Part shown: positions 1-34,957 of the stretch, one piece after another
Layout of the letters: the number at the start of each line of letters is the position of its first letter
How positions within the stretch are numbered: position 1 is the first letter of the stretch
Source of the DNA: Prochlorococcus sp. AG-402-L18
Lineage (GTDB): Bacteria; Cyanobacteriota; Cyanobacteriia; PCC-6307; Cyanobiaceae
Length of the DNA stretch: 45,489 bases
Reading direction: 5' to 3'
NCBI GenBank assembly: GCA_003216725.1
Contig: QCIL01000011.1
Location: 1 to 45,489 of the forward strand
Notes under the pieces: model-generated
The model's input: only the letters and a program-made list of their open reading frames with translations
Databases searched by the model: none
Told to the model about the DNA's origin: nothing
Made by a program: the position numbers and the translations under genes

Positions 1-484
1 GAACTACGGAGGAATTATGTGGATAATTTCATGCACTGCAGCATTATTTTTACCCTCATTAACTAAAGTTTCGGAATTAGGAGATGGATTTTTTTTAAAT
101 TTGAATAATTTTATTTTATTTATAATTTTAATTTGCATCATATGTCTAATTGGAATAGGTGCATCAACTGCTTACCTAATACCATGGTCACTTCTCCCAG
201 ATGCCATAGATGAAGATCCAGAGAAACCAGCAGGGCTTTACACTGCTTGGATGGTGCTCATTCAAAAAATTGGTATTGGCCTAAGTGTTCAAATATTAGG
301 AATTTTATTGTACCTTTCTGGTTATCAATCATGTTTTGTGGAAAACAATAGCTTAAATATCATCGAACAATCATCACTAGCTCAATTAACGATCAGACTA
401 TGCATTGGTTTTATACCCTCTTTGTTGGTAATAATTGGTCTACTAATAATGAAAAAATGGGATCAAAAATTAATTACTAATTAA
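1..484 (+). CDS. GPH/MFS-type sugar:cation symporter, C-terminal part
   Basis: Partial gene: the frame is open from base 2 and runs off the left edge, so the ATG at 17 is internal. About 160 residues remain, with roughly four hydrophobic segments and a cytoplasmic-loop motif LLPDAIDEDPEKPAG typical of glycoside-pentoside-hexuronide (MelB-like) MFS transporters. It is expected in the inner membrane; the substrate cannot be read from the sequence. It is followed after 9 bases by an MlaE-type permease on the same strand, suggesting co-transcription. Family assignment is fairly confident, specificity unknown. Confidence 0.75.
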   Translation, partial: NYGGIMWIISCTAALFLPSLTKVSELGDGFFLNLNNFILFIILICIICLIGIGASTAYLIPWSLLPDAIDEDPEKPAGLYTAWMVLIQKIGIGLSVQILGILLYLSGYQSCFVENNSLNIIEQSSLAQLTIRLCIGFIPSLLVIIGLLIMKKWDQKLITN

Positions 485-493
485 TATAGAATA

Positions 494-1249
494 ATGTACT
501 ACCCAAAATTTTTTAAACGACTATTGAGCAGCCTAATCATTGGTGGGCAGGCAATTAATTTTATTTTCAAAGGGAAAATTTCCAGGAATGATCTTTTTGA
601 GCAACTTTTGGAATCTGGTCCAGGAAGCTTATTAATTGTTTTAATTACAGGCATTGCTGCTGGCACAGTTTTTAATATTCAAGTTGCCTCCCAACTCACA
701 AGTATGGGGGTTTCAAGCGAAATAGGCGGGTTACTAGCTGTAGGTATGGCAAGAGAGATGGCTCCCTTACTCACTGCTACATTAATGACTGGTAAAGTTG
801 CAACTGCCTATGCTGCTCAACTAGGTACTATGAAAGTTACAGAACAAATTGAGGCTATAACAATGTTAAGAACTGAACCTATTCAATATTTAGTAGTACC
901 AAGATTACTTTCTATGGTAATAATGTCGCCAATACAATGCCTTTTATTTTTATCAGTAGCTTTATGGAGTGGACAAATATGGAGCACAGTATTTTATAAA
1001 GTTCCTCCAATAGTTTTTTGGACATCTGTAAGGTCAGGGAATGTCAGTTTAAGCAATTCGGATTTGACTTCTATGTTAATAAAATCTGTAGTTTTCGGAT
1101 TACTTATTTCGATTATTGCTTGTGGATATGGACTCTCCACTAAAGGAGGGCCAAAAGAAGTTGGAACAAGTACAACAGGTGCCGTTGTAATGACCCTTGT
1201 TACTGTATCTTTAATGGATGTAGTTCTAACACAACTCTTATTTGGATAA
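494..1249 (+). CDS. MlaE/YrbE-family ABC transporter permease
   Basis: A 251-residue membrane protein of the MlaE (DUF140, TGD1-like) family, the permease of phospholipid-transport ABC systems that move lipids between membranes. Diagnostic features are the hydrophobic block around residues 45-70, the conserved stretch GGLLAVGMAREMAPLLTATL and the EQIEAITMLRTEPIQYLVVPR coupling region near the middle, then three further hydrophobic segments. ATG start at 494, close to the preceding stop. No ATPase or MCE substrate-binding gene is in the window, so the partners must be encoded elsewhere. The downstream DUF3119, DUF3086 and plsY genes on the same strand fit a lipid/envelope context. Confidence 0.88.
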   Translation: MYYPKFFKRLLSSLIIGGQAINFIFKGKISRNDLFEQLLESGPGSLLIVLITGIAAGTVFNIQVASQLTSMGVSSEIGGLLAVGMAREMAPLLTATLMTGKVATAYAAQLGTMKVTEQIEAITMLRTEPIQYLVVPRLLSMVIMSPIQCLLFLSVALWSGQIWSTVFYKVPPIVFWTSVRSGNVSLSNSDLTSMLIKSVVFGLLISIIACGYGLSTKGGPKEVGTSTTGAVVMTLVTVSLMDVVLTQLLFG

Positions 1250-1253
1250 ATCT

Positions 1254-1658
1254 ATGTTTAAAATTAAATCAAAAGTACAAGAACCAGTAACAATATCTCC
1301 TTCATTTCAATTGCCAATTATTCTTATAATCTTAAGTTTTATGCTTTTATTTCTGAATATTGGATATTGGCCTACAATAGTTTTTGCTTCTTTTAGCTTT
1401 TTTTTATTAATTCAATCATTTACTTTAAGAATAAAAATAACAAATGAGGCCTTTATTGTTTTACAACTAGGTAAAGAGATTAGAACTTTTCCATTCAAAA
1501 ACTGGATTTCATGGAAATTCTTTTTTCCAATAATTCCAGGTATTTTTTATTTCAGAGAAAAGTCTAGTCCCCATTTACTACCAATATTATTTAATCCAAA
1601 GCAACTTAAAGATGAACTTATAAAAAAAGTTGAATCTATGGAAATTACAAATTCCTAA
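1254..1658 (+). CDS. DUF3119 family membrane protein
   Basis: About 134 residues with two adjacent hydrophobic segments near the N terminus (residues about 20-60 from the ATG) followed by a soluble domain with the pattern RIKITNEAFIVLQLGKEIRTFPF and WISWKFFFPIIPGIFYFRE, as in the cyanobacterial and plastid DUF3119 family of unknown function. I prefer the ATG at 1254; a TTG at 1242 in the same frame would overlap the upstream permease by 8 bases. It sits between the MlaE-type permease and DUF3086 on the same strand, so it is probably part of that operon. No function can be assigned. Confidence 0.75.
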   Translation: MFKIKSKVQEPVTISPSFQLPIILIILSFMLLFLNIGYWPTIVFASFSFFLLIQSFTLRIKITNEAFIVLQLGKEIRTFPFKNWISWKFFFPIIPGIFYFREKSSPHLLPILFNPKQLKDELIKKVESMEITNS

Positions 1659-1687
1659 AATTTTGACAAAACACACAAATTATAAAA

Positions 1688-2701
1688 ATGAAAAATACAG
1701 AAATTTCAAATAATAATAATCCTGAAAAGGAATTAATTTTAGATCAAACAATCACTAATGTGCAAAAACCGGAAAATAGCAAAAAAAATACTACTCAAAA
1801 TAAAAAAGTAACTGCAAATAATAAAAAATTAATCAAATCTTTAGATGAATTATCTAATGAAATTTTAAGCGATCTAATATCAAAAAAAGACTGTTTAATA
1901 AAAGAAATAAAAAACTTGGAAACAAAAAAAAATGAATTGAATAGTGATATTGAGTCAAATTTCAAAGGACAATCAGATAATATCGCAAAAAGAGTAAAAG
2001 GTTTTCAAGAGTATTTAACTGGTGCTTTACAGAATCTTTCACAAAATGTAGAAAAACTTGAATTAGTTTCTCAGCCGATAATAGTAAAGCCATCTCCTCT
2101 TGATGAAAAACAGAAAATCTCAAGCAAACCTGAAGTAGTAAACGTCCCTGCACTTTCTGAAACATTTAAACCAGATGAACAAATCATAAGAAGCTGTTTC
2201 TCAACTTTCAAGGATCAACCTGATTTTTATGCTGAGCCTTGGAAATTAAGACGAAGTCTTGATTCATTAGATATTGAATTAATGGATGACTGGTTTTTTA
2301 ATATGGGAGGGAGAGGTTCTTTAGAAAGCAGAGGTTCGAGACAAAAAAATGCTTTAATATCAGCAGGTTTAATAGCAATTCTTGGAGAGCTTTATGGAGA
2401 CCAATTCCAAACTCTCATCTTAGCTTCACAACCAGAAAGACTAGGAGAATGGAGGAGAATCTTACAAGATTCTCTTGGTCTTACAAGAGATGATTTTGGA
2501 CCTAATAGTGGAATTGTTCTTTTTGAAAGACCTGAAGGTGTCATTGAGAGAGCTGACAGACTAGAGTCTAACGAAGAATTACCATTTATAATTGTTGACG
2601 CTGCTGAAACATCTGTTGAAATTCCAATCCTTCAATTCCCGTTATGGCTTGCATTCGCTGGCTCTAATAATGAAATTTACGATGATTTAGAACTCAATTA
2701 A
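1688..2701 (+). CDS. DUF3086 domain protein with N-terminal coiled coil
   Basis: 337 residues. The first 45 are low-complexity and rich in N, K and T; residues about 48-130 are a probable coiled coil ([19 protein letters not shown] region). The conserved C-terminal DUF3086 domain, from about residue 165, includes [20 protein letters not shown] and the [21 protein letters not shown] block. The family is restricted to cyanobacteria and has no established function. No signal peptide or membrane segment is seen, so it is probably cytoplasmic. ATG start; plsY follows after 5 bases, indicating one transcription unit. Confidence 0.8.
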
Positions 2702-2706
2702 CTAGT

Positions 2707-3300
2707 ATGAATACTTCTATAATTTTAATTAGTTACCTTTTAGGATCATTCCCCACAGGTTTTTTGATTGGGAAAAATCTTAAAAATATAGATCTAAGAC
2801 TAGTAGGCTCTGGATCTACAGGTGCAACAAATGTCTTAAGAAATGTAGGGAAATGGCCAGCACTTTTCGTTTTTATCATTGACGTAGGGAAAGGTCTTAT
2901 TGCAGTAAAGATTGCTCAATACTATTCTGATCAAAACTTAATGGAAATCCTAGCAGGGGTATCAGCCATCTCAGGGCATTTATGGCCAATATGGTTAAAG
3001 GGGAAAGGAGGTAAAGCTGTTGCAACTGGGTTAGGTATGTTTTTAGCTCTTTCTTGGAAAGTTGGATTAGCATCTCTGGGTATTTTTTTAATAGTCTTGG
3101 CAAAATCTAAATTTGTATCTTTGTCTAGTATTTCAGCAGCAACCTTTTTACCTATTCTTATGTTTCTTTACCTCGGAAATTTTATGCATTCATACTTTTT
3201 TATCAGTTTGGTTGTTTCATTATTAGTTATCTGGAAACATAGAACTAATATCAATAGATTGATTAAGGGAAAGGAATCTAGGATTAATCAGAAGCAATAG
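2707..3300 (+). CDS. plsY: Glycerol-3-phosphate acyltransferase PlsY
   Basis: 197 residues, full length for PlsY, the membrane enzyme that transfers an acyl group from acyl-phosphate to glycerol-3-phosphate in the first step of phospholipid synthesis. It has the family motifs [13 protein letters not shown] near the N terminus, [15 protein letters not shown] (residues about 35-50), and the [21 protein letters not shown] loop near residue 90, with about five hydrophobic segments. ATG start 5 bases after DUF3086. Its last 17 bases overlap the convergent pyrF gene. Confidence 0.95.
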
Positions 3301-4009
3301 ATTTACATATATCATTGAAAGTCTTATTAGGATTTGTTGCTTTTGATATTGTTCTACCAACAACTAATTTTGAAGCCCCATTTTTTAAGGCTTGAGATGG
3401 GGTCATAATTCTATTTTGATCATCTTTATTTTCAATCTTTGTCCTGATACCAGGTGTAATTAATTCGAAATTATATTTATAAATCGATCTCAACTTTTTT
3501 ACTTCCCAAGGGGAACAGACACATCCATCTAATCCAGCCTCAAAAGACAACTTTGCGAGTCGAAGGACATTCTCCTCAATTGAAGTATTCCTATCAAGAT
3601 CATTTTGATAATCTTCGAGAGAAAAACTTGTTAGTACCGTTATTCCAATAACTGATGGGGGATTTAAATTAACTCTTTTTGCCCCCTCTAAAGATGCTTT
3701 TTTTGTCTCCCTAAGAGCTTTTAAACCTGCTGAAGCATGTACAGAAATTATATCTACCCCTAATTTGGAAACTTGATAACAAGCTGAACTCATCGTATTT
3801 GGAATATCATGAAACTTTAAATCTAAAAAAATTTTCTTATTTAAACCTTTCAATATTTCAATAACGCCTGGACCCTCTCTAACAAAAAGTTCTAAGCCAA
3901 CTTTAACCCATTTAATATTTGGGCAATTTTCTAAAAGCGATTTTGCTTCAATTATATTTAACCCATCAATTGCTAATATAATTTTATCTTCTGAATAAGA
4001 TCTGTTCAT
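3284..4009 (-). CDS. pyrF: Orotidine 5'-phosphate decarboxylase
   Basis: 241 residues. It catalyses the last step of UMP synthesis, orotidine monophosphate to UMP. The beta-barrel motifs are clear: ILAIDGLN at the N terminus, WVKVGLELF, the catalytic [12 protein letters not shown] (the DxKxxD triad) and the phosphate-binding [14 protein letters not shown] near the C terminus. ATG start at 4009, 6 bases after the tyrS stop, so it is probably co-transcribed with tyrS. Its 3' end overlaps convergent plsY by 17 bases. Confidence 0.96.
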
Positions 4010-4015
4010 ATATCT

Positions 4016-5254
4016 TCAGTTCTCAAATCTTTTTGTTATTTTTTTTCCAATTTGCAAAATTTTACCAACTAAATCTTGCTTTGAATTAAATACCATATCC
4101 GGTTCTATTACTTTCTCACTATCAATTTTCACACCTCCCCCTTTAATTAACCTCTTTGATTCACTACTAGATTTAAACAAATTCAATGCACTTAAAAGAT
4201 AAAAAAATTTCACAGGGAACCTTATCTCCTTTAATGAAATTTCAGGAATATCCTCTACCTTTTCTTTGAGGCCAAGGAATAGTTTTTCACAATTAGATTG
4301 TGCTTTTAAGGCTTCTTCTTTACCATGAAATAAAGAGGTGACTTCAAAAGCCATGCGTCTTTGCAAATCTCGTGGACTTTTTTCTTTAATAAGATCTAAA
4401 TCTAATTCTGTAAGTAATTCAAAGTAAGAAGGGATCAAATTATCAGGAACTTTTTCTAATTTTGAATACATTGAAAGAGGATCTTCACTTAAACCTATAG
4501 TATTAGACTCAGATTTGCTCATCTTCTTAATTCCATCTAAACCTGTAAGGATTGGAAGCAATATTCCATATTGAGGTTTTTGCTTGAAGTATCTTTGAAG
4601 ATCTCTACCTATTGCAATATTAAATTTTTGATCTGTACCTCCAAGTTCAATATCTGAATTTACTGCTACAGAATCGTAACCTTGCAGTAGAGGATATAAA
4701 AACTCATGCAAAGCAATTGGAATTTGAGAATTATATCTTTTATTGAAGTCCTCTTTAGATAGCATTTGACTAACTGTTGAGCTACCCATTAACTCAATAA
4801 TTGAGTTAAGATCAAGTCCTTTTAACCATTCACTATTATATCTAATCTCTATCTTATCCTTTGAATCAAAATCTAAAATTGACTCATTAGAAGGTTTCCC
4901 AAAACCTAGTTGAGTTAAGTATGTTTTTGCATTTTCTTTAACTTGTTGTTCTGATAACTGTATTCTTGTTTTATTTTTGCCAGTCGGATCACCTATTTGC
5001 GCAGTAAAATCTCCAATAATTAAAACTGCTGTATGACCATTATCTTGAAATGCCCTAAGCTTTTTAAACAAAATACTATGACCAAGATGAATATCTGTCC
5101 CTGTTGGATCTATACCAAGTTTAACCCTTAATTTCTTACTGTTTTTATAAGCATTATTAATACAGTCAGAAAGGGTTTTATCAGAATTCTGTGTTGGAAA
5201 GCATTCTTCAATTCCTCTATTAAGCCATTTTGGCAACATTGGTATTTCGAACAT
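4016..5254 (-). CDS. tyrS: Tyrosyl-tRNA synthetase
   Basis: 412 residues, a class I synthetase charging tRNA-Tyr. The HIGH-like signature is HLGHS (about residue 57), the tyrosine/ATP pocket is seen around [21 protein letters not shown], and the KMSKS loop is intact ([10 protein letters not shown]). The C terminus holds an S4-type RNA-binding domain ([15 protein letters not shown]). It is the longer bacterial TyrRS type. The start is ATG at 5254; a second in-frame ATG five codons later (MLPKW) is also possible. It lies between the DUF1825 gene and pyrF on the same strand. Confidence 0.96.
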
Positions 5255-32777: not shown

Positions 32778-33932
32778 TTAAAAATTATGTTTTGAATAAT
32801 TTTCTAATATTCTCTTATTTATTTTTGGAATATTTTCTTTAAATTTGAAAAAACCTTTTTTAGCAAATTTCCAAGCAAATAAATCTTCATCCCTCACAAG
32901 ATTAAAAATTTTTTTATGGTGTAAATTTTTAAACTCAGTTATGAAATCATAATTTTCTCCCACTCCAGGATAAATAATGTCTATTTCGTTGGTATTTTTA
33001 AAAGTATTTTTCAGTGAATAAGGATCAATCTGTTCAACATTATCAAAATCCTCTACAAATTCAGAGACCAAATCTTGTTTAAATTTCAAGACAGATTCAG
33101 ACAATTTAATTTGTCTTTGTTCATTTTTTAAAAGGATAATGAATACTTTTTTATAGCTTGTAAGTAAATTTTTTAGGGATGCAAGGTGCAGATCATTTTC
33201 AAACATAATCAGATTATCTGATTTAGGATACATATCATTTTTATAAATCTCATCTTCTAATGGTATTTGATTAGATTCTTCAAGAAAAATTTGTTGATTA
33301 CTTATTTTTTCTGCATTAAATCTATTATTTGAAAATTTTCTGAGGTTTGATGATGAAAAAAGATATTGTTTTCCCTTCGTTTGCAATCCTCCGACCCATC
33401 TCCAGCTAAGGAGATTAGATGCAGCATCACCATCAAAAAGATATTTAAAGAAAAACTTTGCTCCCAATTGCCATGGAAGGCCTAAATTAAATATCCAAGT
33501 ACTCGCAAACCACATTCTTGTATGGTTATGCAAATAGTTGTACTGCTTTAATTCATGGACCCAAGAATTAAAAAAATCTAATTCTGTATTGCCATTAATT
33601 GCACTTTCATATAGCTCATAATCAAAATCGAGATTATTTTCTGAAATAAAATTTCTCCAAACTTTAGGTCTATTTTCCATCCACCCTTTCCAGTAAACTC
33701 TCCAAAATATTTCTTCAACAAATTTATTTGCATTTTTGATTTTGTACTTACTTTTAATATCATGAATCAGATCATATTCCGATAAAATTCTATGACTAAT
33801 AAAAGGCGATAATTTTGAAACTGAACTTTCGTTATTTGGCCCAAAATCAAAATTTCTTAATTTTGCATAATCATTAATTTTGTATTTCGCAAAATTTTCC
33901 CAAGTATTTTGGGCTTTTAATAAAAATGACAT
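32778..33932 (-). CDS. Photolyase/cryptochrome-like protein with FAD domain first
   Basis: 384 residues. Residues 1-215 match the FAD-binding catalytic domain of DNA photolyases and cryptochromes: FVEEIFWRVYWKGWMENRP (72-90), then LHNHTRMWFASTWIFNLGLPW (134-154) and LFDGDAASNLLSWRWVGG (165-182). The usual N-terminal antenna domain is missing from the front. Residues 238-384 instead look like that alpha/beta domain placed at the C terminus: LIMFENDLHL, VFIILLKNEQ, EIDIIYPGVGENYDFI and DEDLFAWKFAKKGFFKFKENIP. So this appears to be a domain-swapped photolyase homologue. Repair activity and chromophore are unknown. ATG start. Confidence 0.8.
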   Translation of the reverse strand: MSFLLKAQNTWENFAKYKINDYAKLRNFDFGPNNESSVSKLSPFISHRILSEYDLIHDIKSKYKIKNANKFVEEIFWRVYWKGWMENRPKVWRNFISENNLDFDYELYESAINGNTELDFFNSWVHELKQYNYLHNHTRMWFASTWIFNLGLPWQLGAKFFFKYLFDGDAASNLLSWRWVGGLQTKGKQYLFSSSNLRKFSNNRFNAEKISNQQIFLEESNQIPLEDEIYKNDMYPKSDNLIMFENDLHLASLKNLLTSYKKVFIILLKNEQRQIKLSESVLKFKQDLVSEFVEDFDNVEQIDPYSLKNTFKNTNEIDIIYPGVGENYDFITEFKNLHHKKIFNLVRDEDLFAWKFAKKGFFKFKENIPKINKRILENYSKHNF

Positions 33933-34207: not shown

Positions 34208-34957
34208 ATGAATAATTTATTAGTTAGAAATGTTAAGTATCTAGATGAACAATACAGATTAGGTGAAGGCATAATTTCGGATGATGCATTTAAGCAACTT
34301 GAAAAGCTCTTTATTCCTGTTGATCCAGAGCCTGACTACTTTAATCAAAAAAATAATAAACTTTTGCCAAAATTAGCTAAAGAAAACTATAAAGAATTTT
34401 TGGAAAGTTTATTAACAAAAACAAGATTAAGCATTCAACCAAAAATTGATGGTTGTGCTGTTGCAATTAGATATATAGATGGCAAATTTAATAAAGCTAT
34501 TACAAAAAAAGGATTAGATGTCTCAAGCAAAATTAAACAAATTAAAAATGTCCCCGATTGTATTCCTATCAAACGAGATTTTCAAATTAGAGGTGAACTA
34601 TACTCTACAAACCAAGTTGCCGGCATTTCCCAAAGAATTACAAGAAAATACCTCAATGATAAGAAAGGGATTGGAGAAAGTCTCCGCTTTTGCTGTTTCC
34701 AAATACTTAATGGAAGACTTAATCAATACGAAACCCTTAACTATCTTAAAAAATGTGGCTTCAGCACCCCTGATAGTTACTTCACAAATCATACAAGCGA
34801 AATCCAAATATATAAAAAAAATTGGTTAGAGAGAAAAATATTTGCGAAATATCCAACTAACGGGATAGTTATAAAAATAAATAGTAGGAAATTACAGTTA
34901 CTTAGAGAGAAAAGTTTATCTCAAAATAACGAATGGCAATATGCAATTCAAAAATAA
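34208..34957 (+). CDS. Stand-alone NAD+-dependent DNA ligase adenylation domain
   Basis: 249 residues. It matches the adenylation (nucleotidyltransferase) domain of LigA: motif I PKIDG with catalytic K79, motif III RGE with E130, motif IV NGIVIKI with K223, and motif V EWQYAIQK with K249. K249 is the very last residue. The N-terminal 35 residues (YRLGEGIISDDAFKQLEKL) resemble the NMN-binding Ia domain. The OB fold, zinc finger, HhH and BRCT domains of full LigA are absent. It may ligate nicks, only adenylate a substrate, or act on RNA. Divergent from the photolyase-like gene. ATG start. Confidence 0.82.
   Translation: MNNLLVRNVKYLDEQYRLGEGIISDDAFKQLEKLFIPVDPEPDYFNQKNNKLLPKLAKENYKEFLESLLTKTRLSIQPKIDGCAVAIRYIDGKFNKAITKKGLDVSSKIKQIKNVPDCIPIKRDFQIRGELYSTNQVAGISQRITRKYLNDKKGIGESLRFCCFQILNGRLNQYETLNYLKKCGFSTPDSYFTNHTSEIQIYKKNWLERKIFAKYPTNGIVIKINSRKLQLLREKSLSQNNEWQYAIQK

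Follow-up and report, generated by a model that had tools for sequence, protein, structure and literature searches.

The gene at the locus

The stretch of DNA surveyed here (the window) spans 45,489 nucleotides of Prochlorococcus sp. AG-402-L18 (contig QCIL01000011.1 of assembly GCA_003216725.1, 1.4 Mb long and 85% complete), and its minus strand carries, at 32778-33932, an open reading frame of 384 codons from ATG, uninterrupted by stops. With a probability of about 0.87, this gene codes for Phr7, a NewPHL-class photolyase that has its flavin adenine dinucleotide (FAD) domain first and a domain of predicted antenna fold second, and that likely performs light-driven repair of cyclobutane pyrimidine dimers (CPDs) in single-stranded DNA. 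The domain inversion itself is already known as that of a published enzyme class, Phr7/NewPHL. In a survey of 81 picocyanobacterial genomes, Haney et al. (2022, PMC9426592) describe Phr7 in high-light (HL) and low-light I (LLI) strains of Prochlorococcus as an N-terminal FAD domain followed by a C-terminal short photolyase "Z-domain", without iron-sulfur (Fe-S) cysteines, and link it to the inverted NewPHL class, the CPD photolyases acting on single-stranded DNA that Emmerich et al. described in 2020. The window gene, from the same genus and with the same two domains and lack of Fe-S cysteines, is another allele of Phr7.

The nearest relatives of the protein are likewise from Prochlorococcus, namely P0004 of strain MIT 9302 (384 residues, 85% identity), which its strain and architecture suggest to be the Phr7 of the figure in PMC9426592, and P0078 of MIT 9515 (69%); metagenomic proteins (P0093-P0120) follow at about 57-62%. 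The full-length gene is present in 22 of the 24 other genomes of the genus that were searched; one of the remaining two (G003, 94% complete) gave a short weak match only, and in the other (G020, 81% complete) the same search did not find phr7. Since the gene is so widely held, and the window protein aligns from end to end with 21 relatives at 57-85% identity, a chance reading frame is ruled out. One relative, P0091 (alignment A1), has an N-terminal part unlike the other rows and a remainder near Prochlorococcus, and may stem from recombination or from a chimeric contig.

Table 1. Features of the photolyase gene in the window
Feature	Position	Strand	Basis
phr7/NewPHL-type photolyase gene, 384 residues, FAD domain first	32778..33932	-	Open reading frame, PF03441, homologues
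FAD-binding (catalytic) domain, residues 1-212	33297..33932	-	Structure match 1-212
D167-G-D169-AAS-N173, FAD-contact motif	33414..33434	-	Aligned to D388/D390/N394 of L134
N136-HTR-M140, presumed lesion-pocket Asn and Met	33513..33527	-	Same Asn/Met in 8/8 class-I-like rows
Linker between domains, residues 213-237	33222..33296	-	Lies between domain edges of the structure matches
Predicted antenna-like alpha/beta domain (Z-domain), core, residues 238-347	32892..33221	-	
C-terminal helices with conserved W-x2-A-x2-GFFKFK-x2-IP, residues 348-384	32781..32891	-	28 rows of alignment A3

The catalytic domain

The sequence-only reading had located the hallmarks of the FAD domain in the N-terminal half, and they are indeed there: its motifs lie at the residues it gave, FAD_binding_7 (PF03441, Pfam) covers residues 71-196 (E 2e-14), and solved photolyases match the protein through this part, as in 1iqr, whose residues 208-364 align with 37-190 of the query (E 5.3e-11). 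The structural match begins at residue 1, so that the antenna domain is not N-terminal, unlike that of a classical class I photolyase. The Pfam match covers profile positions 1-131 of 203, so that the final third of a classical FAD domain is absent or unrecognisable.

The catalytic residues were compared with class-I-like photolyases of eight cyanobacterial loci, two of which were checked against NCBIfam: L134 passes the cut-off of the 8-hydroxy-5-deazaflavin (8-HDF) photolyase model, and L137 has the same model as its best match, below the cut-off. Residues Y22, S39, S42, E74, W77, R78, N136, M140, D167, D169, N173, W177 and W179 are kept in the window protein, as is W154 (Pro in one row of the eight). 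It departs from all eight at V38 (Thr) and F71 (Trp), while at S172 six rows have Ala and two have Ser. Among the residues kept, E74, W77, N136, M140, D167, D169, N173, W177 and W179 are taken here to correspond to residues that in class I enzymes contact FAD or belong to the CPD pocket, and W154 and W177 presumably belong to the Trp chain. The third Trp of the class I enzymes (W322 in L134 numbering) aligns with Leu101, which leaves a Trp dyad. The window protein thus has the FAD and CPD-pocket residues in common with class I CPD photolyases, yet differs from them in the position of the antenna, the incomplete FAD domain and the third Trp. A Trp dyad is also described for the NewPHL protein of Dinoroseobacter (D. 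shibae) in PMC8948257, and together with the inverted order it is a point of likeness to that class. The reference positions D388/D390/N394 of L134 correspond to D380/D382/N386 in the numbering of PCC 6301 (L134 = +8; legend in PMC9426592).

The second domain

Structure prediction shows residues 238-347 as an alternating beta/alpha domain, and the protein is therefore not a stand-alone FAD domain of the SPL ("short" photolyase-like) type; in the full-length model, the predicted local distance difference test score (pLDDT) is below 50 over residues 168-223. The inverted order proposed by the sequence-only reading gains support at the level of the fold. The check that it had suggested, structure prediction and a search with the C-terminal domain alone, was run, and the best structural matches after re-alignment are photolyase antenna domains, with photolyase/cryptochrome chains at ranks 1-16 among the matches listed (lists of 50, from which the absence of other families is not counted as evidence). 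The C-terminal domain is accordingly predicted to have the antenna fold. A FENDL block, previously read as antenna-like, overlies with its strand the WHRRDLR strand of true antenna domains, which agrees with that reading, but the corresponding profile alignment is weak (E 0.032, probability 1.6%); in the relative P0121, TEEDC occupies the strand that holds FENDL in the window protein.

The kinship of this domain with the antenna follows from the predicted fold and from a chain of profiles that passes through alphaproteobacteria. Homologues of the window protein occur on five alphaproteobacterial plasmids (Ruegeria, Niveispirillum, Asticcacaulis, Peteryoungia and Novosphingobium); they share the inverted order and fall in the same clade as the window protein, yet differ from it in being only 27-33% identical (A3). 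The tblastn match ends at residue 332 for Ruegeria and at 293 for Peteryoungia, in both cases within the C-terminal domain; more than 80% of the query is covered in one of the 121 plasmid records (Ruegeria) and in none of the 10 phage records matched. The 120 listed relatives of the Ruegeria protein include few named ones, nearly all alphaproteobacterial. Across the 38 rows of alignment A2 (22 of them relatives of the Ruegeria protein), eleven residues of the C-terminal domain never vary, and five are still invariant in the 28 rows of A3, to which the plasmid proteins were added; in the terminal helices, W354 and G360 are invariant in A3, and A357, F361, K365 and P369 nearly so. The profile of the Prochlorococcus-type domain (157 rows) matches that of the alphaproteobacterial type (123 rows) over 61 columns with a score of 48.4 (E 4.1e-7, probability 93%), whereas 39 scored shuffles reach 17.8 at most. 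Profile match, invariant residues and model together show that the window photolyase and the alphaproteobacterial members have this short alpha/beta (Z) domain in common.

The next link in the chain joins the alphaproteobacterial-type domain to a profile built jointly from 30 antenna domains of cyanobacteria and 11 domains of the Phr5 type, the latter from the separate antenna proteins considered below. The score of 34.9 (E 8e-5, probability 61%) lies above the maximum of 60 column shuffles (23.9) and above Usp, CoaD-like and response-regulator profiles (12.8-15.9). Taken singly, the antenna domains give E 0.0026 (12%) and the Phr5 domains E 0.001 (22%), and a first, smaller hhalign round was similarly weak (antenna E 0.0017, 15%; Phr5 E 0.00087, 23%). 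Phr5-type and antenna domains match one another at E 1.9e-13 (98%).

Several results weigh against a displaced antenna. No Pfam or NCBIfam model matches the C-terminal half at or above its curated cut-off, and a PDB sequence search returned nothing usable for it; a profile search of each half, also suggested earlier, thus bore out the FAD half (PF03441), but residues 222-384 did not match PF00875. The Prochlorococcus-type domain alone scores 9.8-13.9 against the antenna profiles, which is no signal, and pooled with the alphaproteobacterial type it scores 19.3, under the best shuffle (22.6). The antenna and Phr5 models, run with HMMER on the 28 members of A3, give no better than E 0.0029 (in a file of 28 sequences). 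In the structural search, CoaD chains head the Foldseek ranking before re-alignment, and for the C-terminal domain alone the antenna domains beat other Rossmann-like folds by less than 2 Z units. Together with a weak NCBIfam match to CoaD (residues 249-339, E 0.024), these results leave some room for an unrelated Rossmann-like (HUP-group) domain fused to the FAD domain, an explanation that is nevertheless improbable. It is opposed by the ranks of the photolyase chains after re-alignment, by the margin of the homologous alphaproteobacterial domain over CoaD-like, Usp and response-regulator profiles and over shuffles, and by the sister-branch Deinococcus and cyanobacterial proteins, in which a recognisable antenna domain likewise comes after the FAD domain. 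Matches of the C-terminal half to Focal_AT (E 0.02-0.1) and HAD_SAK_1 (E 0.017), all below cut-offs, were dismissed as chance.

As a displaced antenna, the C-terminal domain would pack on the FAD pocket and close it, the pocket's own last third (by PF03441) being missing or unrecognisable, and its role may be this closure rather than the holding of a light-harvesting pigment. In the 2020 work of Emmerich and colleagues, the C-terminal domain of NewPHL has reportedly been proposed to seal the FAD site.

Activity

The literature on NewPHL suggests that the window protein would carry out light-driven repair of cyclobutane pyrimidine dimers in single-stranded DNA: PMC13274461 reports such repair, with inverted topology, for NewPHL/SPL proteins. 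A cryptochrome-like light sensor that has lost DNA repair is a distinctly unlikely alternative, as the CPD-pocket residues checked are all kept and CPD repair is reported for NewPHL proteins (PMC13274461). In its favour, some members of the family elsewhere are sensors. Least likely of all is a (6-4) photolyase, the activity that PMC9426592 suggests for the relatives Phr4 and Phr6 on the ground of their Fe-S cluster, for in spite of its kinship with the SPL/Phr4 group the window protein shares Met140 with the CPD enzymes of class I and has no cysteine among its 384 residues, and hence no Fe-S cluster. As one published photolyase of Prochlorococcus, a dominant phototroph of the ocean, a CPD-repairing Phr7 may contribute to ultraviolet tolerance.

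Phylogeny and gain of phr7

In a tree of the FAD domain (IQ-TREE, 46 rows, 193 columns), the Prochlorococcus rows form one branch (support 95/89) with 13 alphaproteobacterial-type rows, made up of the five named plasmid proteins and eight relatives of the Ruegeria protein. The other, weaker branch (84/63) unites 11 cyanobacterial SPL proteins with those of Deinococcus and Persicobacter; a long-branch warning applies to the class I rows, Persicobacter, Deinococcus, L104 and two alphaproteobacterial rows. According to PMC9426592, marine Synechococcus and Cyanobium have the reversed Phr4/Phr5 and Phr6. These and the SPL proteins resemble Phr7 in that FAD and antenna parts, as two genes or one, are FAD-first where linked, but they belong to a clade separate from that of the window protein; seven SPL rows aligned show a C-x2-C motif that the window protein lacks, and the antenna partner of SPL resembles PF00875, below its cut-off.

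Prochlorococcus probably gained phr7 laterally, since among 24 genomes of the same family but other genera a single one (G065, locus L104) has the full-length gene, while 15 have the SPL form and eight have neither. A short-chain dehydrogenase gene adjoins phr7 in L104, and the window has its homologue on the opposite strand, one gene removed from phr7; this lends weak support to a single old gain.

Antenna partners of the short photolyases

PMC9649867 presents the SPL proteins as devoid of the alpha/beta domain and as possible ancestors of the photolyases. Their genomic setting suggests that this class may not be antenna-less. Among 291 sampled genomes of the cyanobacterial class, a search at E <= 1e-20 finds 63 with the SPL-type FAD domain, in open frames of 250-384 residues and one of 582, and 13 with full-length Phr7, the genome of the window included. 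A search with ten Phr5-type antenna sequences, nine of them taken beside SPL genes of the same sample, matched 64 genomes strongly (E below 1e-24), namely all 63 with SPL and one more (G098), whose SPL may fall under the search threshold; it matched none of the 13 Phr7 genomes. Left out were 13 weaker rows (E 1.7e-8 to 9.2e-7, one 3.8e-9), 12 of which lie in open frames of 467-586 residues and are likely ordinary photolyases.

Of the 63 genomes, 44 have the antenna match downstream of the FAD match at a gap of 80-349 bases, both on one strand; it is a separate gene in 43 (example loci of the stand-alone antenna gene are L113, L115, L119 and L120) and in one (G277) is fused with the FAD part in the single 582-residue frame. 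The antenna match of the other 19 lies 1-2 kb downstream (3), elsewhere on the same contig at 88 kb to 4.9 Mb (10), or on a different contig (6). The 63 genomes are related and fall into nine families, so the pairings are not independent events. One in-frame stop interrupts each of the Phr5 matches in G121, G131, G147, G153 and G299, through pseudogenes, edges or recoding. PMC9426592 describes the two genes side by side in marine picocyanobacteria and reports this gene set for Nostoc punctiforme as well; nothing further on the SPL-antenna pairing was found in the literature searched, whose coverage leaves out many journals.

Outside the cyanobacteria, three of four Deinococcus plasmid records (L220, L221 and L222) code for single FAD-first proteins of 456-472 residues with an antenna-like domain second. 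Their C-terminal parts score 134-148 bits against the Phr5 profile, which includes one Deinococcus sequence, and two of them match PF00875 below the Pfam cut-off (E 0.0007 and 0.001). The fourth record has two genes overlapping by 4 bases, the second of which matches PF00875 at E 0.00023, again below the cut-off. The Persicobacter plasmids L126 and L223 also code for FAD-first proteins; the C-terminal domain of neither is recognised by the antenna or the Phr5 models.

The FAD-first order may thus be old in the SPL/NewPHL branch. Because all 63 SPL genomes hold an antenna gene, and because three of the four Deinococcus records are fused and the fourth has overlapping genes, it is an even chance that the short photolyases are two-piece enzymes with the antenna in trans and that the FAD-first order is ancestral to the whole branch. 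The Z-domain of the window protein would then be a fused and shrunken descendant of an antenna subunit. Short photolyases have reportedly been put forward as the antenna-less form from which all photolyases descend; the predicted antenna-like fold of the Z-domain and the strict pairing of SPL with an antenna gene bear on the question of an antenna domain in the first photolyase. The pairing makes this question testable and is the part most worth following.

Neighbourhood of phr7

Divergent from phr7, at 34208-34957 on the plus strand of the window, lies the gene of a 249-residue protein in which Pfam sees only the adenylation domain of NAD-dependent DNA ligase (PF01653, E 7e-18). A homologue adjoins phr7 in 74 of 81 loci, and several of the remainder have short flanks. 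The sole viral contig found, L004 of IMG/VR (1-5099), has at its edge a 96-base match to the end of a phr7-like gene and, beside it, an open reading frame like the DoxX gene of the window, joined to phage-like frames that we take to be genes of a T4-like cyanophage; the contig is treated as a host-phage junction or a misassembly.
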